Both the position numbers and the translations under genes were made by a program. Source: Amyelois transitella (lineage: Eukaryota > Arthropoda > Insecta > Lepidoptera > Pyralidae). From it: 64,000 nucleotides of DNA. Positions within the stretch are counted from its first letter, which is position 1. Each line of letters begins with the position of its first letter. The stretch lies in the NCBI RefSeq assembly GCF_032362555.1, contig NC_083514.1, positions 11,207,001 to 11,271,000 on the forward strand, given 5' to 3'. The notes below the pieces were generated by a model, which made no database searches, was not told the origin of the DNA, and worked only from the letters and a program-made list of their open reading frames with translations. Shown piece by piece: positions 1 to 52,116 of this stretch.

Positions 1-283
1 GGTAAAAAATCCAAGTAGTCTCACTTAGAAGAACGCACCACACACAACACGCGTTTATGTCTAATTTTTCACTGCACACGGCGACACAGTTCCGCGCGCT
101 CCACGGCCGTCAGCGCGCGGCCGGCGCTCCGCCGCGAGTGCCCGCGCCCCGCCCACCGGCCGCGGGGTCCGCCGCCGGGAGGGATGATTCTCCAACTCTA
201 CATAAAGTGGAGCCTCCGTAAACCTCAGCATGATTCGCAACCACAACTCCGCTGAGACAACACGCGCCGACCTTAACCATCCT

Positions 284-10500: not shown

Positions 10501-13500
10501 CTAGGGTATTAGAAATAAACTACAAATAATATATGTAAATATCATTTATTATCAAAAATATATGTCGTATCAAACTACAAATATTCCGTCAAAACAATAT
10601 AACACCATTACGTCGCAAAAGGTGGCGGTCAATTAAAAATTAAAAAGTCAATGATCTTAAAATTAACAAGAGAATATAAAATGCGACCGTCACCTTATGT
10701 CGATATTGTCAAATATTAAAACTAACTATTTACGCTATAACTACATAACTACAATTGATAAACCTACGGTAAATAATAAAATAATTGTGAGGGAATTTAT
10801 TAATTGTATAACAATAAGCGGATTCTTTCATAATATTTCCTGTCGGGATCATTCACACGGGAGTCAATACGATTCAATGTTATTTTACGTTTTCCTTGTT
10901 CCTGGCTGAAGGCGGGCTGGTCGGCTTCGTATAGGGAGCAACTAACGTAATTGTAAATACGTGAAATGATATTATAAAGATTTTTAATTTTACTATTATT
11001 TCCAAGCCAAACAGATCACAATATTAATACTGAACTTTAGTGTGGTTTTTATATATTGTTAATATGTTTAGGATGTGTGTACATAAATACATCAGAGTAA
11101 TATTCTGGTAGACAATTGACTGTAGATACCGAGAGCATACACTACAATACAACTACAGACTCCCCGCCTTACTCCTTTACTTCTACTCGTACTAATGGCA
11201 CAGTACACAGACATAGACCTCGCGTGGCAAAACGGTGATCAATGGACCTGACTTCATAGCAAGCAAGAAACTTGACACATTTGATTATTGAACACTAACG
11301 GCCCACCATGGCTTCACCCGTGGTACATAGCATAAAACACCCGAAGATAATGTATCTCTTTAACAAGGGTCGATTCAGTATTTAAAAAGATTAGGCAGTG
11401 CAAACAATCAAAGTTACAAACTTTACGTCTTTATAATATTAGTATGTGTGTAGACGTGGAGACGGGCGATGCAGCAAATCCGTCCTGGAATGGCAACTAA
11501 GAGCTAGAAAGAGGAATACTGGCAGACCATTAATCAGCTGGTCCGACGACATTAAAAAAACCCTGCCGGGATAACATAGACCAGAAAACCTTTGATAGAG
11601 CTAGGTGGAAAGATATCGGAGAGGCATATGCCCAGCAGGGGGCGAATATTTGCTGAAGAAGAGAATATTAGTATAGGTATGGCGCTATCTATAATTCCAA
11701 TAGTGACTATAGCTCGATCTATGTCTGCGGTACTGTGACCCCCCCCTGTACTGTGGCGCTGCGCTCACCCCGGCGGCTCCTGGTCGGAGTCGCCGGCCTC
11801 CTCCGCCTCGTCCTCGTCGGCGGCGCCCGCGCCTGCAATACAAACAATCGTGTTCACTACACTTGCACTGAATGTTCTCTTAGGTTCTTATTCTAGTCGA
11901 GTATCTCGACTGTCTCCTGTAATAAAGGAATTGAAAGCGTCTGACCGTTGTCTAAAACGTGTTCAAACAGTAGTGTATACTTTGCTTCTTTAACGGTCAC
12001 AAAGTCCTCCTGTTAATGACAGTCTCCTGTTAATGACAGTCTCCTGTTAATGAATATGAGATAATAAGAAATAATCTCATTGGTGTTAACATAATGTAAC
12101 ATTCGCTTGTATCTTTGCTCCCTCTTACTCTTTCTTATTTTTACGTGTTCTCACTTGCATCTCACTTCTTCAGCCTGCTCAAAAACAACTACTGTTGTAC
12201 TAAAAAACATTGTCACACGTATGTATGAGGCTCTCAAAATGTATATAGATTATAGAGACCGAATCTAATGAGATGTTGTGCATGCAGTTATATTTATGAC
12301 GCACGCCTACTTCCCCTAAACCTAGTTGTGTACGTGTGGCAACACAATAGTGTTTGGGGAACCACGGCTAGATTGTTAAGATGCGGCGCATGCGCAAACG
12401 TGGTTTTAATGTCCGGCCTTACGTTTATATTTACGTATACGTTTTTATAAGTTCATCATCCTTATGGCATAATGCCGTTCCAGAGTCTCAGTCTCACGTA
12501 AGTATTTATTAAAGGAACGATTCCTGTTTGACCTCCGCAACCATGTAAACAGGGAAACCTAATAGATTGTGATTATGTTATGGTAAATGACCATAACTAG
12601 GTATATACTTCTATATCTTTTGGTAATTCTGCATTTTTAAAGAGTATATATATATCTATCTATCAATATATATCTATCTATCAAGATTATCTATCAAATA
12701 GATGTGATGTTTAAAAAAGCCGTAAATCCAAATAGTTCCCTTTTTATTATTTCAAAATAAACGAATGATGAAATGATGTGTCGACCAATTTGTAACCACA
12801 TAATTGTCAATAAGAAATTGAACATAAAGAAATCGAGCAATTAGTTTTGTATTTAAAATCTTTACCCAGTGTAAACATACACTTTAAAAAAATGTTCAGC
12901 CTTTTTAAACTGATCTTTATCAGCCCTATAGTGACGCAGTACACCTATTCTAGTGAGCGCAACAAACAATCTGGACAAGGTTTTGGGGAACCACAGCTGT
13001 ATAGTTAAAATGCGGCGCATGCGCACACACGGTTTTAATGGCCGCTTATCGCGATTCATTGCATATTAAAATCGTATCGAGGTTCGTTATAATAAAAAAA
13101 TTTTAATATAGAATTTAAGGGATGTTTTACAACTCAATGACTTCACAAGGATGTCGTAAAAGTTGTTTAAGGGGAATAAAACGATTCTGGAAGAAACTAG
13201 TCTGGTTTGAAACTGTTTTTGAATACACTTTCATCGTAAATGGTCAGCTTTGTCGATTGCTCCTAACATCGAGTCTACAATGTCCCATACATATACATAC
13301 CAGAGGGCGAAGTTTCGCGTAATTTCGAGTGTTGTACACAGACCGGTGTACGCGGTCACACTCACGTACACGACAATTAGTATTCGTGTCGCGCAGTGAT
13401 ACGAGAGCGCGTCGTGTGAGTAACGCCAGTGACGGCAGACCACTCATCCTTGGTCTCCGACCGAGGGAACGGGAAATAACATCACCGAAACATAAATTCG

Positions 13501-16500
13501 TAATTTCTTAGAGTGACACACGTACCTTCAGATGAACATTGGACTTGTGTGTTCAGATTATGAACTGGAGTGATGAATATAGTCTTAATGTATAAAAGAG
13601 GACACTGATTGACCTGACCTAACCCATTTTTGATGATCGGGGTTCGTTTATGACCACGTTCCTGGAAAGTGTCCAGGGTCATAGAGCATAAGAGGAGAGG
13701 ATACATTCGGGTATAACGCTAGGAAGATGAATTATATCTTTTATAGTTGTGCGTTCTCGGATTTGTCACGGTGTACGAGATGTATATAATGTATGTGTAT
13801 ACTGACGGCGCCGTGTGTAGTGCCTGCGCGGCGGCGGGCGGTCGTCGCTGTGCTCGGTGAGCAGCGAGTTGCGGTAGGCCGTGAGCGGCGCGCCCAGCTC
13901 GCCCCAGCTCATGCTGTACGAGATGTATATAATGTATGTGTATACTGACGGCGCCGTGTGTAGTGCCTGCGCGGCGGCGGGCGGTCGTCGCTGTGCTCGG
14001 TGAGCAGCGAGTTGCGGTAGGCCGTGAGCGGCGCGCCCAGCTCGCCCCAGCTCATGCTGTACGAGATGTATATAATGTATGTGTATACTGACGGCGCCGT
14101 GTGTAGTGCCTGCGCGGCGGCGGGCGGTCGTCGCTGTGCTCGGTGAGCAGCGAGTTGCGGTAGGCCGTGAGCGGCGCGCCCAGCTCGCCCCAGCTCATGC
14201 TGTACGAGATGTATATAATGTATGTGTATACTGACGGCGCCGTGTGTAGTGCCTGCGCGGCGGCGGGCGGTCGTCGCTGTGCTCGGTGAGCAGCGAGTTG
14301 CGGTAGGCCGTGAGCGGCGCGCCCAGCTCGCCCCAGCTCATGCTGTACGAGATGTATATAATGTATGTGTATACTGACGGCGCCGTGTGTAGTGCCTGCG
14401 CGGCGGCGGGCGGTCGTCGCTGTGCTCGGTGAGCAGCGAGTTGCGGTAGGCCGTGAGCGGCGCGCCCAGCTCGCCCCAGCTCATGCTGTACGAGATGTAT
14501 ATAATGTATGTGTATACTGACGGCGCCGTGTGTAGTGCCTGCGCGGCGGCGGGCGGTCGTCGCTGTGCTCGGTGAGCAGCGAGTTGCGGTAGGCCGTGAG
14601 CGGCGCGCCCAGCTCGCCCCAGCTCATGCTGTACGAGATGTATATAATGTATGTGTATACTGACGGCGCCGTGTGTAGTGCCTGCGCGGCGGCGGGCGGT
14701 CGTCGCTGTGCTCGGTGAGCAGCGAGTTGCGGTAGGCCGTGAGCGGCGCGCCCAGCTCGCCCCAGCTCATGCTGTACGAGATGTATATAATGTATGTGTA
14801 TACTGACGGCGCCGTGTGTAGTGCCTGCGCGGCGGCGGGCGGTCGTCGCTGTGCTCGGTGAGCAGCGAGTTGCGGTAGGCCGTGAGCGGCGCGCCCAGCT
14901 CGCCCCAGCTCATGCTGTACGAGATGTATATAATGTATGTGTATACTGACGGCGCCGTGTGTAGTGCCTGCGCGGCGGCGGGCGGTCGTCGCTGTGCTCG
15001 GTGAGCAGCGAGTTGCGGTAGGCCGTGAGCGGCGCGCCCAGCTCGCCCCAGCTCATGCTGTACGAGATGTATATAATGTATGTGTATACTGACGGCGCCG
15101 TGTGTAGTGCCTGCGCGGCGGCGGGCGGTCGTCGCTGTGCTCGGTGAGCAGCGAGTTGCGGTAGGCCGTGAGCGGCGCGCCCAGCTCGCCCCAGCTCATG
15201 CTGTACGAGATGTATATAATGTATGTGTATACTGACGGCGCCGTGTGTAGTGCCTGCGCGGCGGCGGGCGGTCGTCGCTGTGCTCGGTGAGCAGCGAGTT
15301 GCGGTAGGCCGTGAGCGGCGCGCCCAGCTCGCCCCAGCTCATGCTGTACGAGATGTATATAATGTATGTGTATACTGACGGCGCCGTGTGTAGTGCCTGC
15401 GCGGCGGCGGGCGGTCGTCGCTGTGCTCGGTGAGCAGCGAGTTGCGGTAGGCCGTGAGCGGCGCGCCCAGCTCGCCCCAGCTCATGCTGTACGAGATGCG
15501 CGCGTCCAGGAACTGGGGAACATATTCATTTATTGTTACGTGAGAAACAACAAAAATCAAACATTTTCAGTTGTAGGTGATATAGTGAAAAGTTAGAGAA
15601 TACACTATATTTTTTTAAATCAAATAAAAATATTTACCAAAAATGTCTGATATTTTTCGTTAAACAAAAACAGGTCATGGCAACCGTTACTATGGTATAC
15701 ATATGCATACGTATGCCAGCTGGCTTTGCCTAATTAATATTTATATACAATAAATAATTAAATACAAATAACGAACTAGCCTACATTAGTCAATATTAAA
15801 ACGAACTGGCGGCAAGAAAAATATATAGAATGAAAGCAAAAAATATTTAAATTTGGACCAAAAGAACTGACCACAAAAAAAAAGAAGAAAAACGCGACCG
15901 TTCTATGGTATCTGAACCGTACGTTTACTTTATAATATACTCGTATTTAGTTCGATGTGCTCACCTTGAGCACTTGCCGTTTATCCTGCCTGAGCAGCTT
16001 GTTGGAGAACTCTGCGAGCGGCTCCAGGAACAGCAGGTTCTGCGGCGGGCCCAGCGGCGAGGACTCCAGCGCCGCGAACACGATGCCGGCGCGGTGCAGC
16101 GCTGTGAGCGCCTCCCGGTTCTTCACCGCGTCGAGGCCGAACATCACGGAGAAGCGCTTGGCCAGCTCCTGTACAACGAATTATAATTATCGCCGTGGTA
16201 CAAACAAAAAAAGTTAATCGAAGCATGGTGGTATTCATATCATCTCCGAGTAATGATGATGCGTAATGATATCTCGTGTATGAATCAATTTAAAAAATTT
16301 AAAAAATCTCATATATTTAAATGAGTAATTCTTGTATATAATCAGGATCTCGGAAACGGCTCCAACGATTTGCATGAAAGTTACAGATTAGGGGCTTTTC
16401 GGCTCAAGGAATCGATTTATTAAGGTCCTAGGTTCGAGAAAAGCTCGGTTCCCAAGATATATAAACATTTTAAAAACCGCGTTATAAGATACTATATCAG

Positions 16501-19500: not shown

Positions 19501-22500
19501 CCGGTGACGCGCCGCCGCGGCACATGCAACAACACCACTCCGTTACCGCGGCCCGCCGTGCGCTCGCTCGCTCGCTCGCTCCCGAGCGCTACCGCCTTTA
19601 TACGAAGATACCCGATCTCGAAATAAATACGTCTTTATACGGAGTTAGGAACTCGGAAGAAATGTACGCGACTTGTTACGAAGTTACCTGATTTTTTAAT
19701 TTAATATAACGCCACTTTAAACAAAGTGTCAAATAACTTTAAATACGCTCTCAAAACTAACCATTTGACTTGACTTGATATTTTATTCAGTTTTCAGATC
19801 TTGAATATACGCGTCAACACGAAATGAGCCGAATTCGACATAAACGTTAACGAACGAAGGGCGAATTAGTATGCTTAATGTCGTTCATAATTTGTTGAAG
19901 TATATATAAATACGACGACAATCGAATATAAATGGATATTTGTAGCGTACCTACTGAAAACGCAATGTGAGAAAACGCAAGAATAATATTAGCAAGGGAG
20001 CGAGAGCGGGCGAGCGCCGCCGCGTGCCGCAGCGAACTTCTAGAGTTCGCTTATAATGCATATTTTTTTCTCTGATAAAGTGGACCGTCGTTTTTTGTGA
20101 TCTTTATAATACTAAATCAAAGTAACATATTAAGGTCATCAATGACGAAACGGCTTAAAGTCGACTCTATTGACAAAATCGGCGAAAATATTGATTACGT
20201 CACAATTTTTTTTATACAAATAGTATCTCGATCGACAATGCCTCCCGAAACGGACTAATATATTTGAGTAGTAATAAAATATATTTACTTTTCATTTGCT
20301 TATATTCGTGTTGTTAAATCTTAGGAGAAAATGTCGATCAAACTATAGATGCGTTTTTAAGATATGTATATTAGCCAAATTGACTGAACACCAACCCCCA
20401 CGTGAACTCAAAATCATATTCAAGACATCAGACGCGGTGAAAAACGCATAACGTTAATGAACTAACGTTCACATAGAATTTAATAAGATTATTTAACCAT
20501 CTGTTTTAAACGAAGTCAACATTTATGGGTGGAAATTACAGGTTGAGAAATATTTCACCGCGTCTAATGTGAACTTGCCACTTTCTTCACACATGTATAA
20601 GATTCGACGTCAATTTGTTGAAAGGTTTAACCCTTCCAAAATTGGAAAGTTACTTTTCCAGGATAAATGACATTGGTGTTTTTAAGCATCGGGGTGCAAT
20701 TTTTAATTTGGATGTAAAATATAATTTTCATTATAAATAATGTTCTATTGAAGTAACAAGTCAAACTTTTCATTTTAAAATTGTATTGAATATATAGATA
20801 TTAGTGTATCGTTGTTTTTATTAATGAAACTATTTCTTTGCAAAACGATAATAACGCAAAGATGTACGTTTAAAACCCCACAATTGAACCCAGTTAAATA
20901 TTAAAAATGAACCATAAATAAACTCGGTAAAGGTTTGATATGCGCACTACAAACAAGGTGTTACCGTAGTTGTGGTGCACGAAGACGAACTCCTGGATGA
21001 AGTCGTTGAGCATGTCGCAGAGCGCGGCGTCGGGCTCCAGCACGAGCGGGCGCAGCGCGGGCGCGGCGTGCGCCAGGCGCTCCGCGAACACCAGCAGCAG
21101 GTCGCACAGCGACGTGTACGCCTCCGCGCGCAGCGCCGCGCTGCTGCCCGACCGCACGATTCTCCGGCACCACTCGCAGTAGCCGCGCAGCCGCTCGCTG
21201 CGGTCACACGGATGTAGTCTTTGTGATTTATGCATAACATTACATGCCTCATTAAAAGCATGCAATTTGTAGATTTCCTCTCTTGACCACTTCTGCACAT
21301 GCGCTTTGGAAGCGGTAGTAGTTATAATTAGATTTAAATAATGTAACGTCAATAAGTGATACCTTGTATACAATTTTGTTATCAATACAATACAATATGA
21401 TACAATATCAGTCGGGGCCAAAGCAAACTTAATGGCTGATTTTGGTTCAGTTTATTGCGTCGACAGATCTGTTCGTGTAATGTAGCGAAATAAATGGAAA
21501 TAAATGGAAATAAATGGAAATAAATGGAAATAAATGGAAATAAATGGAAATAAATGGAAATAAATGGAAATAAATGGAAATAAATGGAAATAAATGGAAA
21601 TAAATGGAAATAAATGGAAATAAATGGAAATAAATGGAAATAAATGGAAATAAATGGAAATAAATGGAAATAAATGGAAATAAATGGAAATAAATGGAAA
21701 TAAATGGAAATAAATGGAAATAAATGGAAATAAATGGAAATAAATGGAAATAAATGGAAATAAATGGAAATAAATGGAAATAAATGGAAATAAATGGAAA
21801 TAAATGGAAATAAATGGAAATAAACGGAAATAAATAGAAATAAATGGCAATAAATAGGAATAAATGGCAATAAATAGGAATAAATGGAAATAAATAGAAA
21901 TAAATTGGAATTAACAGAAATAAATAGCAGACCTGAGCTGCATCACGGCGTCGGCGCCGGCGGCCGGCTTGTGCTCCAGCTCGTGCAGCGCCCACAGCAG
22001 CGAGTAGAAGCACGCGCGCACCACGAACACCAGCGCCGCGCCCGGCATCGCCTGCACAACACCCGCGTCAACTACCACTATCTCCAGTACACACCCGAGA
22101 GGCCATACGTAAAAAGGAAATTCCGAAGGTGCGTTAGCGACATAAAACAAGTCACACCCTCACTCACGGAATCACAACGCTTCGTAAAGCGATCTCTCAT
22201 CTTTGCATGTTGTGTCTTTGCATTTCGGAACCTCCGCCGCTGTATTTGAAGACCTCGGTTGATTGAAGCTATTATTTTAGCCATTTGTATAACCGTTCTA
22301 TTATTTCGCAAATGTAAAACAAAATACTTTTCACTTTAGAATTGTTGAGTTAGCATCCCATAAAACAAGTTTCGAACTTCACTTTTAAAAGCATCTTTTA
22401 AAGTATTCACAACTGAAATATTTAGTTTAGTTAAAAAATCGAAATTAAATTAACCTGTTCCGGAGCCCCCTCCTCGCCTTTGATACACTTGGGCAGGTCC

Positions 22501-31696: not shown

Positions 31697-33668
31697 ATGG
31701 CTAAGAAGACTTACGATTTGCTTTTCAAACTCCTTCTTATTGGTGATTCTGGTGTGGGAAAAACATGCATATTGTTTAGATTTTCAGATAATCACTTCAC
31801 AACGACATTTATATCCACTATTGGTAAGGACCACCTTTGTATTTTATCTTCATTTTACCCTCTCACCCTCTAAATAAAATCACGTGTATCAATAATTCTG
31901 GTGCTGTGATCAGTTTTTAAGACTACTTTCCTCTAACATTGATTGGAGTAATATATGTTGCGGCTGTAAAAAATGATGGTTGTCTTTCAGGAATCGACTT
32001 CAAAATAAAGACAGTGGAGCTTCGTGGTAAGAAAATAAAGTTGCAGATTTGGGACACCGCGGGCCAGGAGCGCTTTCACACAATCACGACGTCGTACTAC
32101 CGGGGCGCGATGGGCATCATGCTGGTCTACGACATAACAAACGAGAAAACGTTTGACGACATCGTCAAATGGTTAAGAAACATAGACGAGGTTAGTGGGA
32201 TATGTGGAGACTATATCTTACAACTTGTCAAAGTACCAGCTTACCTCTTTATCTTTGTCCTCATTCATCACTCTACAAGCTTGTCAGTATTGGATGCATA
32301 TAGATCACATAATGTGCTGGAGAGATTAGTATTTAAAGAAAAGTTAATTCACCATCATGTAAACTGTCATGAATACTTTTGATCATGTTCAATTAAATTT
32401 CATAGCAAGTGGTGAGCAGATTACAGTTCCCTTACATGAAATCGCCTCATTTCCTGAATCAGTTATCACATTACTCACTATGAACCTTCATTATTTTACA
32501 CATGTCAGTGAATACTCAATATAATTTGTTTACAATTGCTGTGGTTATGACTTCATGTTTTCAGTTATCATGTTGTTTATCAGTTGTTTTAAGTAGGTAC
32601 ATTTTGTGGTAATTATTTTGGCTTGCACTTGAAAGTAGAATGTGGCTGAATTTATTTTGTTAGCACCCTTATATTAAGCTTTTTATTCCCTGTCTGGTGT
32701 CATATAAAATTGGACTTATTTAAAAAGGCAGTGATGTTTGTTGAGACTTCTTTATTGATTGATAATATTAGTATGGATGATTCATTTTTGATACAGCACG
32801 CCAATGAGGATGTGGAGAAGATGATCCTGGGAAACAAGTGCGACATGGAGGAGAAGCGAGTTGTTAGCAAGGAGAGGGGAGAGGCGGTGAGTGAATCTTC
32901 TACTCAATTTACAGAGCCCATGAATTTCAGTTTTGAACAAACTTTTTTCATCAACTCATTGGATTCTTCTTTCAAGCAACCTCTCACTCTTTGAATCTCA
33001 ATTCTATCATTAAGCCAAACAGCTGAATGTGGCCTTTCACTCTCTTCAAGACTGTTGGCTCTGTCTACCCCACAAGGGAGACAGACGTGATTATATGTAT
33101 GTAGCAAAGTTCAATATAAACATTAATAGAAGAATTGGGAAATAATTAACATTCTGTTAATGAAGAGTACCAACTGGGCGCTGATTCATGGTGTTTGACC
33201 TTCAACCACATGTTATCATGTTTGCTTGTGGCTACTGTGGTTTATGGCCACACATTTTTACCACACATAAATCTCCCCATATGGATTTGTTTGTTTAGAT
33301 TAATTTCTGATAAAAATGAATTATATGAGATATATTGCTAAAGTTTAGCCGGGATCTCTATCACATCCCATGAATATAAATATAAATATGTAATATAATA
33401 TACAGAGATAATGTGATGGTCATGTAGGGAAGCATTCCCATCTCTCACCTATCACAAACGAATGTTTTGCCAGATCGCCCGCGAGCACGGCATCCGCTTC
33501 ATGGAGACGTCGGCGAAGGCCAACATCAACATCGACCGCGCGTTCTCGGAGCTGGCGGAGGCCATCCTGGACAAGTCGGCCACGCGCGACGCGGACGGCG
33601 ACCTCGCGCGCATCGCCGTGGAGCGCCGGCCCTCGCGAGCGCCGCCCGCGCGCGCCTGCTGCTCCTAG
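31697..33668 (+). CDS. Rab10: Ras-related GTPase Rab10
   Basis: Small GTPase of exocytic, basolateral and ER membrane traffic, anchored to membranes by C-terminal geranylgeranyl groups. Four in-phase coding exons (31697-31823, 31991-32190, 32797-32886, 33474-33668) give 203 residues. The N-terminus [20 protein letters not shown] separates it from Rab8. Visible motifs are the P-loop GDSGVGKT (15-22), switch I threonine in FISTIG, switch [15 protein letters not shown] and ETSAK. The C-terminal tail is Arg/Pro/Ala-rich and ends in ACCS, a CCX prenylation motif like fly Rab10. Intron 3 (32887-33473) holds a SINE copy. The coding end is the template of the tandem array that follows. Confidence 0.95.
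32961..33104 (+). repeat. SINE-like element in Rab10 intron 3
   Basis: 5'-truncated copy with a small deletion, keeping CATTAAGCCAAACAGCTGAA, TTCAAGACTGTTGGCTCTGT and CCACAAGGGAGACAGACGTG with an ATGTATGT tail. Confidence 0.85.
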
Positions 33669-33687
33669 GCGCGCTCGTTGGTATGCC

Positions 33688-33729
<42 letters not shown>

Positions 33730-33835
33730 CCCGCGTGCTCCCAGTGGCCCCCCCGCTACATCGCCGTGGAGCGCCGGCCCTCGCGAGCGCCGCCCGCGCG
33801 CGCCTGCTGCTCCTAGGCGCGCTCGTTGGTATGCC

Positions 33836-33879
<44 letters not shown>

Positions 33880-33985
33880 CCCGCGTGCTCCCAGTGGCCC
33901 CCCCGCTACATCGCCGTGGAGCGCCGGCCCTCGCGAGCGCCGCCCGCGCGCGCCTGCTGCTCCTAGGCGCGCTCGTTGGTATGCC

Positions 33986-34029
<44 letters not shown>

Positions 34030-34135
34030 CCCGCGTGCTCCCAGTGGCCCCCCCGCTACATCGCCGTGGAGCGCCGGCCCTCGCGAGCGCCGCCCGCGCG
34101 CGCCTGCTGCTCCTAGGCGCGCTCGTTGGTATGCC

Positions 34136-34177
<42 letters not shown>

Positions 34178-34283
34178 CCCGCGTGCTCCCAGTGGCCCCC
34201 CCGCTACATCGCCGTGGAGCGCCGGCCCTCGCGAGCGCCGCCCGCGCGCGCCTGCTGCTCCTAGGCGCGCTCGTTGGTATGCC

Positions 34284-34319
<36 letters not shown>

Positions 34320-34425
34320 CCCGCGTGCTCCCAGTGGCCCCCCCGCTACATCGCCGTGGAGCGCCGGCCCTCGCGAGCGCCGCCCGCGCGCGCCTGCTGC
34401 TCCTAGGCGCGCTCGTTGGTATGCC

Positions 34426-34459
<34 letters not shown>

Positions 34460-34565
34460 CCCGCGTGCTCCCAGTGGCACCCCCGCTACATCGCCGTGGA
34501 GCGCCGGCCCTCGCGAGCGCCGCCCGCGCGCGCCTGCTGCTCCTAGGCGCGCTCGTTGGTATGCC

Positions 34566-34603
<38 letters not shown>

Positions 34604-34709
34604 CCCGCGTGCTCCCAGTGGCCCCCCCGCTACATCGCCGTGGAGCGCCGGCCCTCGCGAGCGCCGCCCGCGCGCGCCTGCTGCTCCTAGGCGCGCTCGT
34701 TGGTATGCC

Positions 34710-34751
<42 letters not shown>

Positions 34752-34857
34752 CCCGCGTGCTCCCAGTGGCCCCCCCGCTACATCGCCGTGGAGCGCCGGC
34801 CCTCGCGAGCGCCGCCCGCGCGCGCCTGCTGCTCCTAGGCGCGCTCGTTGGTATGCC

Positions 34858-34891
<34 letters not shown>

Positions 34892-34997
34892 CCCGCGTGC
34901 TCCCAGTGGCCCCCCCGCTACATCGCCGTGGAGCGCCGGCCCTCGCGAGCGCCGCCCGCGCGCGCCTGCTGCTCCTAGGCGCGCTCGTTGGTATGCC

Positions 34998-35039
<42 letters not shown>

Positions 35040-35145
35040 CCCGCGTGCTCCCAGTGGCCCCCCCGCTACATCGCCGTGGAGCGCCGGCCCTCGCGAGCGC
35101 CGCCCGCGCGCGCCTGCTGCTCCTAGGCGCGCTCGTTGGTATGCC

Positions 35146-35179
<34 letters not shown>

Positions 35180-35320
35180 CCCGCGTGCTCCCAGTGGCCC
35201 CCCCGCTACATCGCCGTGGAGCGCCGGCCCTCGCGAGCGCCGCCCGCGCGCGCCTGCTGCTCCTAGGCGCGCTCGTTGGTATGCCGTCTCTCTCTCTCTC
35301 TCTCTCTCTCAGCCCCGCGT
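33612..35320 (+). repeat. Tandem array of the Rab10 coding end plus (TC)n
   Basis: The last 57 bases of Rab10 (encoding [18 protein letters not shown] and the stop) recur 11 more times after the gene, starting at 33760, 33910, 34060, 34208, 34350, 34490, 34634, 34782, 34922, 35070 and 35210. Units are 140-150 bp and differ almost only in a (TC)n tract of about 24-40 bases; one substitution is seen near 34479. Each unit reads coding tail, GCGCGCTCGTTGGTATGCCG, (TC)n, AG, then CCCCGCGTGCTCCCAGTGGC. The array lies in the 3' UTR or just downstream. Long Leu/Ser-rich frames across it are artefacts. Confidence 0.97.
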
Positions 35321-37472
35321 GTTCCTAGTTCCATCTTGTTTTAGTGATTTAACTGTAAAGGCGACTCGCTAAAAATGGATGCTACAGCATTGAATTAACT
35401 TGTAAACCAGGTACTGTGCAAGGAAATTTTTGTCATAGTGTTATATATTTAATAATCTCAAGTCATCTCCCTGGCATTAATCCTAATTCTGTCCTCGCCG
35501 CTCACCGGAGAGACCCCGGGTCCGCGTGCGATCACGATCCTGGAGCAGGTAAACCAGGGCTTACATGACACAACTTCCCGTCTGATTACCGCAACCATAG
35601 ACGGTATCAGAATCCTGTGTTCGCCATTCGCAAAAGTATGTCTCAATCAAGTGAATGACACTCGTCTCGCTCCCAACCATTCTGAAATATCGAATCATTT
35701 ATCTCAAACACGCTTTTCGATAGACTGACTTCTGTACCGATCTTTTTTGTGTCTTAGGTCCCTCACCGGATCGCTCGCTCACTGGAGGACCCCACAGACT
35801 CTTCGATACCTCGAGTCAATTTCATGCGATTTCTAATGGAAACGAAGATCATCTCACAGTGAATCATTAAATATTAATAGAATAAACAACTTAGTGTTGG
35901 ACAAGACACGACGATCCGATGTGCTGATTCGGCGGTTAATGTAACATTTCTGAACTTCTCATACATAAATGACGTAAGATTCGTACACGTATCATTTTAT
36001 CCCGAGGTTTAAGTTGTGTATAGTCTTCTAAAGCTAGAAATGTAAGTGTAGTTCGCGTTAAAGATCTAGATGCTCGCCAACACGTCAAGGACGGAGTGCG
36101 GTCGCCATGCTTACTATATTCACTAGCTTTTGCCTGTGATTTCGCCCCGCTAAGAACATATTTACGCTGCATAACATTATTCGTTGCGGAATCTCACACG
36201 GTTACGGAAGGCTTAGCGTCAGCGTGATACCTATTATCGCCTGATTTTCGAGTAGAACTTACAGAAAGATCTCTCTGCGAACGATCTGCAAACGAGTTTT
36301 TTTATGTGTATAACGCTGTCGAGTTCCTGATATTGTGGAGGTTCACATTTAGACGTAACTGATGACGTAGGATTGCACATGGCGCTTCGACTTCCGGCTG
36401 AAGCGCGAGGACTGCCATGTACTGTAAGCGCACTACAATCACGCACCGGGATTACACATTTTTTTTGTATTGTCATTGCATTTTATAAAGCTTTAACTTC
36501 TAGCGTCAAGAGAAACTAAAGTTGCCTCCTTAAACATTATTAGCCAGCAAATAATAGAGAATTCGTATATATCCAGGAAAAATGGCAAGAACTCTGCATT
36601 TATACTTTTAATTGGCATTTGATAAAGAGGTTAAAGCTTAAACATTAATAATTCATTATTGTAATCTATTTTGACATACATATATATGTTTTAACAGATT
36701 GAGCTTTGTAGACGCAATTGTTACTTAATCGCAATTATTTAAACTTATGTCTCAGTTACGATATATATATTTTTTTAAATGATAATAGTTTAAGGAGTTG
36801 CTATGGAGTTGTATAAGTTTTTACCAAAATTATGGGGCGGATATTTCTACTTAATAACATAATAACATCACACTTACATTGTACGCACGATGCATAATAG
36901 TTCCTTTAAAATTTCCATGTGAAGCTTCAGCTTTTTTATCTCATCTTTTTGTCTGTCCTGCAAGGACGCACCTCACTTGGGCATTTAATTGTTTTTCTAA
37001 AACCTGAAGTGTGATCATAATCATAATGAAATAATCTCTTGGGAATAGGCAGCGGCTGGTGCTGAAAATCAACCTGAACATTATTACCTATGCAAGACTC
37101 ACCCGGGGTGAGATTTCAGCGCAAGTCGAATAAACTAGGTCATTAAGTACCCAATGTAATTGTAATAATGTACGTTAAAGGTTAAATAAATTATACTATT
37201 TTATCGTACGGTGTATGTGTCTCGATGGTTTTTACCTGCTTTTATAAATAAACAGCATTGTATATTATGTTCATATTAAACTACCTATTGTGAACCATGG
37301 CTTTTATTTCCTTTCTTTCTTTATAAACCTGATTTATATGTAGACATTTCATGACCGTGACCTACATAATAATATCTCCTACATCGATAATATGTCTGTT
37401 TGTCTGCTATACATGATATATTTTTAGTGCTGTCTAAGAATAAATTTGATGGCCTGCGTAGCTAAAAGAAAC

Positions 37473-37805: not shown

Positions 37806-40800
37806 ATGTATACTGCGCTGTGGACAGCGGCGCTCGTGGCCTGTTTTAGGCTAGCGTCACTTGCAGACTGTAAGTATACAATTTAAAATAGGTAGGTACA
37901 GTCGCCTGCAGAGAAAATTGACCCCCCTAGGGTTCTGGTTTGTATATAATTTGTCATGTTTATCTGCAGAACACTACCTACCTACCGTGAAACTAAGTTT
38001 TTTCTTTACGATGGATTTTCAGTATCCAATTTACTAAGTCTTAGTCCCGTGTACTATGCTTTCTATCAAACGTGACTTATATGAAAACTGATCAATTAAG
38101 ACATGACAAGAATTTTAGAACCAAAAATCTGGAATTAAACTGTCGCGATGTTTCTTTTCGGTAAATTAATTTCCATAATCTTGGAGGAACAAACCGATCA
38201 AATCTTGACATCTTCACAGGTTTGTAGGCCATTTAGGAAAATGTCACTGTTAACCCTAACTTAAAATTTTTTATTGTCGCACTTCTACCTCAATTTCCAG
38301 CAACCCCGGCATGCGTGATAGAGCTGGAATGTCGTGAGTGCGTGCCCGACCACATGCCGCTAGTGACGTCACACAGCGCGCACGGCGGCCGCGTGTCCGC
38401 CGCGCACGGCGACGAGCTGCGGCTGGCGTGCGGCGGCGGCGCGCTGCTCGCCTACCCCGGCCGCGGCGCCGTGCGCGCCGTGTGCGAGCACGGCCGCTAC
38501 AGGGTGCGCGAGGACGGCCAGCTCAGGCATCTGCTGGAGCTGGGGTGCCAAGAGGACGTGTTTGAGGACGTCTTACATGATGTAAGCTAAGGAGAAAACT
38601 GCCTTATTACTTGTGAAGTTGGACATTTTTATCGAGACCAAAAATATTTGGATATTTTCATTAGTTTTATGTATGTAAAAGTAGGTTACGTTCTCTGCAG
38701 CGTATTTTCTATCAGAATAACCTACTTTTTGGCTTAAAGACTAGTACCCAGAGCCGGATTAACCCTGTCATGGGCCTGTAGGCACTACCATTTTCGGCCC
38801 CTTTTCTTTACCTATTCTGACTGATAATCATGTGATGTATTTTTTTTTGCCTTCTACTAGGGTTGCCAACATTTTAGTGTCAAAATATAGTATTTTTTAA
38901 GAAAAGCTTTTAAAAATATAGTACCTTGCACATAAATATAGTATTTTAGTAGGGAACAATAAAACATTACCTAAGTTACATTTTACTAATTTATTTTTTA
39001 TTTTTTACTGGCCAAAAACTATATTTTTTTGCACTTTTTAACAATTTTTTCTCTCCAATATAACTGGCAGAAGGTTTATCGCAGTAAATTTTTAAATAAC
39101 TATAAATCAAAAGCTCATTTTTAGTAGGTATAAAAGATATATGTGCTCTGTTTCTTTCTTCACACCATTTAGAATTCATAATCCTTTCTATGAATGCCGA
39201 AATAGTGGGAACACTTTTGTTTTAAATACTTTTGGTTTTGTGTATGTGAAAATCGTAAGTCTTTAAATACGGAGAACACATAAACTTTTAAAATTTACCT
39301 TGCAATCGCAGAACTCATATCACATATTGTAATTAAAGATACGTAGGTTATAGGTATTTTGAAAGTTTCGGAACTATTACGCTACAAATTATTATCACCC
39401 TACGGAAGCTTACAGAACGCACCCAACAAATCGGGGATTCCCCCAACGTACGGTCGCGTTCATAATTGCAGTCATAGTTGGCAAAACTTTATAGCTTGCA
39501 CTCACCGCTGTCACTCACACATTCACACAAATAACACAATAAACAACAAGTGGTAAAGCGTTGGGTAACGCGCCATCAAGAAGAGGGTAGTGTAAGTAAA
39601 AGTCGCCGCGCAGCGGCCGTCGTCCGCTAATCAACACAGCGACACGCCACACAGCGGAGATCCATGGTGGAACAGTACGAAAATAATGGCTTCATACTGA
39701 CCAGAACATTTGCGGAACAGTTCGACACATCAGTGGTTACTGTTCGTCGAGTTTGCACCGTGAGGGACTACACCACAGACAGCCAGCAAGAAAGCCGTAT
39801 TTATCCGAAATAAATAAGCAAAAACATTTAGAATTTGCTCGGCAGTATTTGGATTTTGACTGGAAAAAAGCAATATTTACGGACGAAAAGTTCGTTTACG
39901 TCATCGCAACACGGTAGGCTTCATTTATGGCGAAGAAATGCAACTCGGTATTAAGAAAAAAATATTGGGCCAAAGATGGAGTCTGGACACATATCTATAA
40001 ATATGTGGGGCTGGATGAGTGCTGCTGGACCTGGGGAACAGGTGTGGATAGCAGGACGCGCTACAGCTGCTCATTATGTGCAAGTGCTGCAAGAAACCAT
40101 GTTACCAACTGTGCGGTGAATTTATCCGATTGATGATATGCCAACAATATCATTTGTGCAAGACAACTGCCCTGTGCATCGAGTCCATATAGTGCGTGAA
40201 AGGTTCTGCCAGTTTATATTAAAACTACTAATTACTTAGATAGTGTTTTAAGGACAGCTTCAATATCTTTTCTTTATGAAAACGAATAATTAAGCTGTAA
40301 CCTTAATAACAGGAGATAAGTAGATGATACAATTAGTGTAATATGCTGTATGTACATTCAGTCAGAAAAGTATCGGGAATGGATTATTTATTTATGGTTC
40401 CAAATTCAAATTTTTGTTTTTTTTGTTGTTGTTAGATTGGCACAACTGTTTTCCATTTTGGCGCGGAGTTTGAGTTGCATCTGTTGTTTACATTAAATAC
40501 AGTGCTATTTTTAGTTATATCATATCTAGTGTGTATTGCTAATTTCATAATGGATAAAAACATCGAACAAAGAGTTTGTCTTAAATTTTGCATTGCCAAT
40601 GGAATATCGTGTTCGGAGTCACTGAAAATGTTACAGAAGGCTTACGGTGAATCGACTTTATCAAAAACTCGTGCTTATGAGTGGTACAAAGCGTTCAAAA
40701 GCGGTCGAGATGTGATGGAAGATTTGCCTCGCTCTGGTAGGCCATCAACGTCTGCAACTGAAGTTAACATCGCAAAAGTGAAGGAAATAGTGACTGAAAA

Positions 40801-43800
40801 TCCTCATTCAACTTTGAGAGAGATAGCCACCGAACTTTCTGTATCTCACGAGTCGATCCGTACCATTTTAACTAATAATTTGGGTATGAAACATGTTGCC
40901 GCTCGGCTAGTCCCAAAAGACCTGAATTTTTTTCAAAAACTCAATCGCATGAGAGTCGCTGAGGACATGCTAGAACGAGTCAATTCCGACCCAACATTCA
41001 TGAAACGCATTGTTACTGGTGACGAGACGTGGGTTTACGAGTTTGACATGCAAACTAGTCAACAAGCTTCGGAGTGGCGCCTTCCAACTGAACCGAAACC
41101 GAAAAAACCACGCCAAAGTCGTTCAAAAGTCAAAGTCATGTTGACTGTTTTCTTTGACTATCGCGGTGTTGTGCACTCGGAATTCTTGCCGGAAGGTCAA
41201 ACGGTAAATAAGGAATATTATTTGAGTGTTATGCGGCGTTTAAGAGAGCAAATCCGACGAAAAAGGCCAGATTTGTGGAAAGAAAATTCTTGGATTTTGC
41301 ACCATGATAATGCACCTTCGCACAAGGCCATCATTGTGAACGAATTTTTAACCAAACACTCAACAAATACCATCGAGCAACCACCATATTCACCAGATAT
41401 GGCTCCAGCCGACTTTTTTCTTTTTCCTAAACTCAAATTACCACTTCGTGGCACCCGTTTTCAATCGGTAGAAGACATAAAAGAGAATTCGCGGCGAGAA
41501 CTGACCTCAATTCCGGAAACAGCGTTTAAAAAATGTTTTGATGATTGGATTATTCGTTGGCGTAAGTGTATCGTTTCTAAAGGAGCATATTTTGAAGGTG
41601 ATAAAATAAATTTGGATGAATAACAAACAGTTTGTGTATTATTGATCTTTTCCTGCTACTTTCTTGACAGAGTAGTATAGCTTTATATAATCATCAATAT
41701 GTAAACAAAACTATAGGTAAACTGTTTCAATAAAATTTACTAATTTTAATTGAATGTTTTATTTTGCTCCCTCTTGTTTAATATTTTTTGCTGACTTCCG
41801 TGTTTGAAGACACGGGTATTGTAATTCTTAGATATCAGTTAGCTAGTTAGTCAGTCAGTTACTTAGTTCAAATGGCACCTTGAAACATTAAAAATTGTCA
41901 GTAACACTAATTTTTTTTTTTTTAAAAGACAAAAAAAATCCTTGAATTACTTCGGAATCCAAGTAACGCTAGTAACTAGAACAAGCGAGTGTGAGCAAGC
42001 GAGATTATCTAATATATCTTAGATCTCACTTGCTCACACGAAGTAATAAAATTGCTACCCAATAACTTTCAAAGGAACCACTACCTATGTTAGGGTCGTG
42101 TGCAGACAAACTTTCAACCTTATTGAAATGATATAAGTCTGGCAGTCGCAGGCTTCCCCCTCTATAGGCAAATCTTATGCAAATGATGAGAGACGACGAT
42201 ATCTCGATCGACAATTATCGGGCCCAGTTCGGCCATCGTTGATTACCGTCTCTTTCTGTTTTGTTATGTTATATGTCATAGAATAATAAACTGTTTTACT
42301 TAGTAATCATTGGTATTAAAGACCGTATTCATTTGATGGAATATTTATTATTTTTAAATATGCATGTGTGTGTGGATCTAGTGGAACCACAGTGCACGCT
42401 ATTTTAACCCGTAAGAATTTTAAAACTATGACTGCAGATATGAACGCGATCGTACATGAAGTCCAGTTAGTTGCGATTCGAAGGATTATATTAGTTCTTA
42501 TATTAGATACTAGATGGTTCTGTATGTATAAAGTGTTACAGGTGTTGAAAAAGAAAGAAAAGTTTTGTTAATTATCAATTTCGTTCAATTAAAAAAAAAA
42601 TATTTTCGGAATGCAGTGCAGTGGGCGGGGCCCCTGTCGATGCTGGGCCCCTAGGCAGTTGCCTACTCTGCCTTAAGGTTAATCCGGCTCTGCTAGTACC
42701 TACCAAGAAATGATTTTTGTTGCCAACAGAATATACTTAACACTTCGTTACAGACTATGTGCGGCTTACTTAAATAGCAAAGATCTAAATAATTTCATCC
42801 GTTCTTTTGCTTTCGGATAGGTTGAGCATTGCGGTTCTCCGCTCCAAGGCCGCGCGTACAAGACGGCGGCGAGCGGCGCGCCGCGCCACCTCGCCACGCT
42901 GTGCTACGACGCCGAGCGCGCCATCACGCGGCGGGCGCACGCCGTCGCCGCGCCCGGGGACGAACTCCACATGGCGCCGCATTCGGACAACTTCTCGCCG
43001 CTCACCATCCTCGGCAACTTCAATCACATGTTTGATGCTAACACGAGGAGAGACGCCGAAGCCCTGTTTTCAGACGACGTCAGCGCGAACCGCAGACTCC
43101 GCGAGTTGTTAAAACATGAAGACATCGCGCTGGGAGACCAGTCCGTCACGGCCGGCAAGTTGCTAGCTCCACATTACTTTGAAGATCAGAACGCTAGAGT
43201 CACAGAATTTGCGTCTAACAAGGTAGGTAACAATGTGATATTAAAAGTGAGTAGTTTGATATAGGTACTTTATATTAAAAATGCACTATTTTTTTGGAGA
43301 GATGCCGAAGATTGTTTTTAAAAATGTCCTATAGTTTATTGGAGGCGGTTATTAGCGCGGTGTGTTCCTGTTCAAGTTCAAGCTTCATCAAAATACTCCA
43401 CCACAAAAATAAAAATCAAAACATGTAACACTATCTTTCAGATGGTAATGTGGCGCAGCGTGGCACACGGCAACTGGCACCACTTGCAGCGCGACGTGGC
43501 GGCGGCGCTGCAGTCGGCGCGGCGCGTGAACGCGTCGCTGCACGTGTTCGCGGGCACGCACGGCGCCCTAGGGCTGCGCGGGCGCGGCGGGCGGGCGCGC
43601 GTGGCGCTGCGCGCGGGCGGCCGCTTCCCCGCGCCGCGCCACGCCTGGGCCGCGCTCGTGGACCCGCGCGGGGCCGGCGTCGCGCTCGTCGTGCTCAACG
43701 ATCCCTTCGTGGCCGTCAGCGAGATTAAGGTGAACTCAGGAACCGGTACTTACATTTGGTACTGGACATACATACATACATATAGTCACGTCCATATCCC

Positions 43801-44772: not shown

Positions 44773-52116
<7,344 letters not shown>

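Follow-up and report, generated by a model that had tools for sequence, protein, structure and literature searches.

A minisatellite repeating the 5' splice site of a STAG exon in a moth, and similar exon-boundary arrays in other genes of the same genome

What does a gene do with twelve identical 5' splice sites in a row, and is such an arrangement peculiar to a cohesin gene? The question is raised by a minisatellite in the STAG (stromalin) gene of the moth Amyelois transitella, found in a stretch of 64,000 nucleotides (hereafter the window). A direct period test revealed an exact run of 1727 bp, in which a 143-bp unit is repeated identically 12 times and a further 11 bp remain, and Tandem Repeats Finder applied to the window returned 13772-15498 with period 143, 12.1 copies and 100% match, so that the 12 identical repeats of 143 bp read in the initial annotation are confirmed. 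The span given there, 13774..15512, does contain the array, but the array proper occupies 13772-15498, and 15499-15512 is unique exon sequence. Likewise, its division of the unit into 107 nt of exon and 36 nt of intron is one possible phase: given the 11-bp match between the ends of the array, the exonic share may be put at anything from 107 to 119 nt. When the unit was searched against the 327-Mb assembly, at least 12 matches were obtained, every one at the STAG array with 100% identity, and no source copy outside the array was found among them.

13772..15498, no strand assigned: tandem array, 12 x 143 bp + 11 bp, identical copies (period test, Tandem Repeats Finder, genome search)
15488..15498, minus strand: 11-bp end repeat CATCTCGTACA, exon copy (exact run 12 x 143 + 11)
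13772..13782, minus strand: 11-bp end repeat CATCTCGTACA, intron-side copy (exact run 12 x 143 + 11)

Diverged copies were looked for at both edges of the STAG array and were not detected on the intron side (score 16 versus a shuffle maximum of 23) or on the exon side (23 versus 25), unlike the arrays in PI4KB and Rab10 described below, which do carry them. Given a butterfly mutation rate of 2.9e-9, the zero differences in about 1.7 kb date the last homogenisation only to within roughly 600,000 generations. The "very recent" expansion previously proposed is thus a softer claim than that wording suggests, and both recency and variation in copy number are plausible. Two other properties of the array were considered and rejected. 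It is not a coding repeat, since 143 is not divisible by 3 and each minus-strand frame stops once per three units, and a segment of 263 nt, just under two units, folds no better than its shuffles (z -0.42). Contig C10 measures 11,409,249 bases, and the window is 138-202 kb away from its end. Minisatellites could be favoured by such a subterminal location, but the array in PI4KB sits at 3.0 Mb on contig C8. Elsewhere in the window we observed an uninterrupted 395-aa frame at 40436-41623 (plus strand), which we take to be mariner transposase-like, and two overlapping reverse transcriptase-like frames at 47542-49265 (minus strand), presumably a LINE remnant.

On the minus strand, the array covers the 3' end of a STAG exon together with its 5' splice site. 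The identity of the gene is supported by the joined anchors of earlier exons, which match the Pfam domains STAG (1.3e-33) and SCD (5.8e-30), and by exons 17 and 18, which match human SA-2 with an E value of 2.7e-22. The repeated exon had been called exon 18, a provisional number that agrees with its place as the 18th of 19 coding anchors. The features relevant to its splicing are the following, where a slash marks the splice junction.

15965..16168, minus strand: STAG exon 17, 204 nt, upstream (SA-2 match together with exon 18)
15380..15512, minus strand: STAG exon 18, 133 nt, of which 15380-15498 lie within the array and 15499-15512 are unique (SA-2 match, open frame, acceptor ccccag/TTCCTG)
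15374..15379, minus strand: first 5' splice site, GCC/GTCAGT, with its G at 15379, the sole donor of the 12 in frame into candidate exon 19
13801..15236, minus strand: 11 decoy donors, each leading to a stop before the junction
11769..11832, minus strand: candidate STAG exon 19, 64 nt, acidic frame (splice motifs and phase only; joins donor 1 in phase)
15237..15343, minus strand: hypothetical 107-nt pseudoexon, from acceptor ACAG/CATGAG to the donor of copy 2 (motif score 2.9)

Exon 17, exon 18 up to donor 1, and candidate exon 19 form a single open frame. The repeat unit crosses the exon-intron boundary, and its first copy leaves an intact in-frame exon, with exon 19 modelled from motifs and phase. 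This mapping of exon and donor agrees with the earlier reading that the array was built from the end of a STAG exon with its GTCAGT donor, giving 12 identical donors. That each decoy adds a stop also holds, as donors 2-12 (with their G at 15236, 15093, 14950, 14807, 14664, 14521, 14378, 14235, 14092, 13949 and 13806) all reach one shared stop, 102 to 1532 nt ahead of the junction.

How strong is the repeated donor? Scored with a weight matrix, it obtained -3.2, the lowest value among 17 scored STAG donors, the other 16 ranging from -0.2 to 6.3; most of these sites are the best-scoring candidate per exon, which biases the scores upward. The comparison covers 17 of the 19 anchored exons, and even the best candidates of the two excluded ones, exons 6 and 10 (-2.2 and -1.7), score above the repeated donor. 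On the acceptor side, the site ACAG/CATGAG scores within the range of 13 STAG acceptors (-0.7 to 5.5), and the 107-nt pseudoexon sequence recurs in every downstream copy of the array. In principle, going by these motif scores, every downstream copy could serve as such a pseudoexon. The gene also holds a 10-bp array (GAAATAAATG, 44 copies, 21487-21925), which begins 7 nt past the donor of another STAG exon (G at 21932).

Is the architecture restricted to STAG? A survey of 20 stretches of 10 kb, taken at 3.0 Mb on contigs 1-20 (200 kb), contained one array with at least three copies and a period of at least 50. This array (L016 4521-5556, G000 C8, minus strand) carries six identical donors spaced by 171-173 bp and is built from the end of an exon of PI4KB (PDB match, 7.2e-14) with a strong donor, AAG/GTGAGA. 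As in STAG, donor 1 leaves an open exon, and donors 2-6 reach a stop after KDKVR. The ends of the PI4KB array share a 16-bp match, its units of 171 or 173 bp contain substitutions, and a diverged partial copy lies at its intron end.

A second exon-end array is found in the window itself, in a gene identified as Rab10 by a PDB Rab-10 match (1.5e-71).

33611..35321, plus strand: Rab10 array, 12 copies of 140-150 bp, the last copy incomplete, crossing the end of the coding sequence and the stop codon

The Rab10 copies differ from one another by a TC tract of 12-20 units and by one substitution. Each copy contains (TC)12-20 followed by AG, which is acceptor-like, in what would be the 3' UTR. Over 314 kb, made up of the window and 25 stretches of 10 kb (three of them adjoining it), all three arrays with at least three copies and a period of at least 50 lie on exon 3' ends. 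That count includes the STAG array and another from the same window, and its cut-offs were set once the list had been inspected. Left out of this count were repeats of about two copies (L013, 112 bp; L014, 132 and 27 bp; L019, 34 and 48 bp; L029 and L030, 66 bp), an array with a period of 33 bp and 3.2 copies (L015) and everything with a period below 20; the individually named ones have a GC content of 0.12-0.26.

We then searched the whole genome for three AGGTRAG sites separated by gaps of 117-147 bases, using the reversed pattern as a control. The raw counts are equal (289 matches versus 285 for the control), and only the number of distinct arrays differs. Because the control rows are concentrated in a few satellites (80 of the 100 listed belong to four short-period satellites and one 70-bp array, as 40+14+11+2+13), distinct arrays were compared instead of raw matches. 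The 100 donor matches listed out of 289, on contigs 1-11, form 19 clusters, of which 10 have a median spacing of 124-154, whereas the 100 control matches listed out of 285, reaching contig 27, form 12 clusters, with none at that spacing on contigs 1-11 and three overall among the matches listed. Nine of the 19 donor clusters were fetched, in a non-random choice that favoured GC-rich ones, and in seven of them (L034-L039 and L042) an open reading stretch extends as far as the first of the repeated donors or the site equivalent to it. In L039 a diverged first copy forms the exon end, and its donor is GTGAAT where the later copies have GTGAGC. Database matches named four of the seven: AP-3 delta (1.7e-6, two exons joined), a helicase-like protein (8.5e-7; L036, presumably BTAF1/Mot1), aconitase (1.3e-30) and glycogen debranching enzyme (2.3e-14). 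A Pfam search gave no match for L035, L037 and L038. In two of six other arrays tested, L035 and L036, read-through past the decoys meets no stop in the part fetched. L035 (G000 C4:11748988-11753122) shows 31 consecutive triple-donor matches, which implies about 33 copies of a 129-bp unit; since this unit length is divisible by 3 and the part fetched shows no stop in the read-through, it may be either a coding coiled-coil repeat or a donor array. L036 (G000 C11:2230015-2231101) has 135-bp units with about 11 nt of intron per unit, and its read-through is open and in frame in the fetched part.

The corresponding search on the acceptor side, for three TTKCAGG sites, gave 63 matches genome-wide in 14 clusters, five with a spacing of 124-154 (reversed control, 61 matches). 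This pattern partly matches CAG/GT donors, so it offers no clean contrast, and three of the six clusters fetched turned out to be donor-side arrays (L044, L045 and L047). L044 matches Sec6 (5.1e-9), while L045 and L047 had no database match. L044 (G000 C13:2162588-2164711) consists of about 30 copies of a 73-bp unit, with the end of a Sec6 exon and CAG/GTGATC. One acceptor-side array, joining an intron end to an exon start (SSVDEVEALLKRHEE), was found at L048 (G000 C30:3225500-3226150, minus strand), in a gene that we take to be spectrin and for which Pfam found no match. That donor-side arrays are commoner than acceptor-side ones is, at this stage, how the searches look, a lead and not a result. 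Four of the fetched clusters did not prove to be clear exon-end donor arrays: L041 and L043, which both look non-coding (L043 intronic), L046, which shows no array, and L040, which is not clearly one.

Taken together, the PI4KB, AP-3 delta, helicase-like, aconitase, glycogen debranching enzyme and Sec6 matches place the architecture at more than one locus in the genome. It recurs in this genome and is not specific to cohesin. The STAG array is best explained, and we consider this likely, as a minisatellite of the type called mirages in amphioxus, tolerated since the first donor would be the one used. A segment running from the final part of the STAG exon through its donor into the beginning of the intron would have been duplicated in tandem, probably between two 11-bp CATCTCGTACA repeats, as suggested by the 11-bp remainder of the exact run, and unequal exchange or slippage may then have made the array grow and kept it uniform. 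A duplication reaching from inside an exon to past its 3' boundary would leave, as the first copy, a complete exon with its own donor, and it is because this copy stays complete that the array can persist. The exon's acceptor would pair with the nearest donor, which is also the first to be transcribed, making the remaining copies plain intron, and occasional use of a decoy would lead to a stop and probably to decay. With a whole exon first and its first donor used, such arrays would survive in ordinary genes, and no function is needed. The exactness of the array, the frame that is open with donor 1 alone, the like end matches in STAG (11 bp) and PI4KB (16 bp), the recurrence of the architecture in unrelated genes and the amphioxus precedents support this account. 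As a counterpoint, the STAG donor is weak, so that decoy use or inclusion of a pseudoexon could be appreciable. Moreover, in experiments with duplicated sites some factors prefer the donor nearest the 3' splice site, which in STAG would be the last copy and counts against use of the first donor.

A bolder version of this account, which we regard as unlikely, would make the formation of exon-3'-end arrays systematic: units mostly of 130-170 bp in dozens of essential genes, far more on the donor than on the acceptor side, since the first-transcribed of the identical donors would be reliably chosen; in genes with a weak donor, such as STAG, the decoys would leak, and copy number would set output via decay of mis-spliced RNA. 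An origin of the units in Okazaki-fragment or nucleosome length was also considered.

Could the array instead be a device for cohesin dosage, as the initial annotation proposed? A set share of STAG pre-mRNA would then use the decoys or the 107-nt pseudoexons and enter nonsense-mediated decay, and copy number would tune cohesin. The shared stop upstream of the junction, the fair acceptor contained in the downstream copies and a first donor weak enough for competition to be possible all fit such a device. We nevertheless find it quite improbable. Unrelated genes share the architecture, which is present in PI4KB, AP-3 delta, the helicase-like gene, aconitase, glycogen debranching enzyme, Sec6 and, over a stop codon, Rab10, so a control specific to cohesin is not supported. 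Furthermore, the read-through frames of L035 and L036 stay open in the fetched part, the PI4KB donor is strong, amphioxus mirages are reported with normal splicing, and none of the observations carries a link to cohesin.

The identity of all 12 copies could also point to an artefact of assembly, in the array or in its copy number, which we hold to be very unlikely: the assembly consists of 33 contigs over 327 Mb, the sister arrays vary between copies (in PI4KB by unit length and substitutions, in Rab10 by the TC tract and one substitution) and have diverged edges that a copying error would hardly make, and several independent arrays sit on exon ends. Least probable of all, and hardly credible, is that the decoys help, as extra intronic U1 sites that reinforce a weak first donor in an array under selection, since this fits the weakest donor of the 17 scored in STAG but not PI4KB, where the same architecture goes with a strong one.

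For a tolerated mirage-type minisatellite, the interest lies in what its splicing could reveal. Experiments on how one of several identical 5' splice sites is chosen usually rely on duplications made artificially. This genome offers a natural series of genes, each with about 4 to 33 consecutive, near-identical donors, some strong and some weak, in which each transcript reports the choice made. Our observations suggest that exon-boundary minisatellites of the amphioxus type are more widespread, with a testable preference for the donor side. The genes that carry them are likely to be handled badly by annotation pipelines and by the mapping of short reads. In the open-access minisatellite literature we found, among the matches listed, no report of exon-boundary arrays in Lepidoptera.

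Several known systems resemble the STAG array in part. The unit of the human IFI6 minisatellite is 12 bp long and in frame, and its alternatives encode isoforms, unlike STAG, where donors 2-12 all give a stop and do not keep the frame. The two are alike in that their repeat units hold splice donors, and in IFI6 two downstream units are reportedly used, giving three mRNA species (PMC4526556). Human internal tandem repeats at exon-intron boundaries in segmental duplications likewise show minisatellite growth altering exon/intron structure, but they have units of 30 bp on average in about 4 copies and belong to recent primate paralogues (PMC2812944). Intron gain by tandem genomic duplication also combines an intragenic duplication with a change of intron; there a new intron is made, whereas the STAG array lengthens an existing one (PMC4974935). 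The closest counterparts are the amphioxus mirages of the globin, Adh, TnC and PGBD5 genes, which consist of tandem units that combine exon with intron sequence and each carry a splice site (150-160 bp in the globin genes), vary in copy number, evolve in concert, can involve either boundary and reportedly do not disturb splicing, although their copies could act as cryptic splice sites and give rise to new introns (PMC3087553, PMC3902484). The STAG array differs from them in its 12 perfectly identical copies, in its occurrence in a moth and in having a sister array, that of Rab10, which lies over a stop codon.
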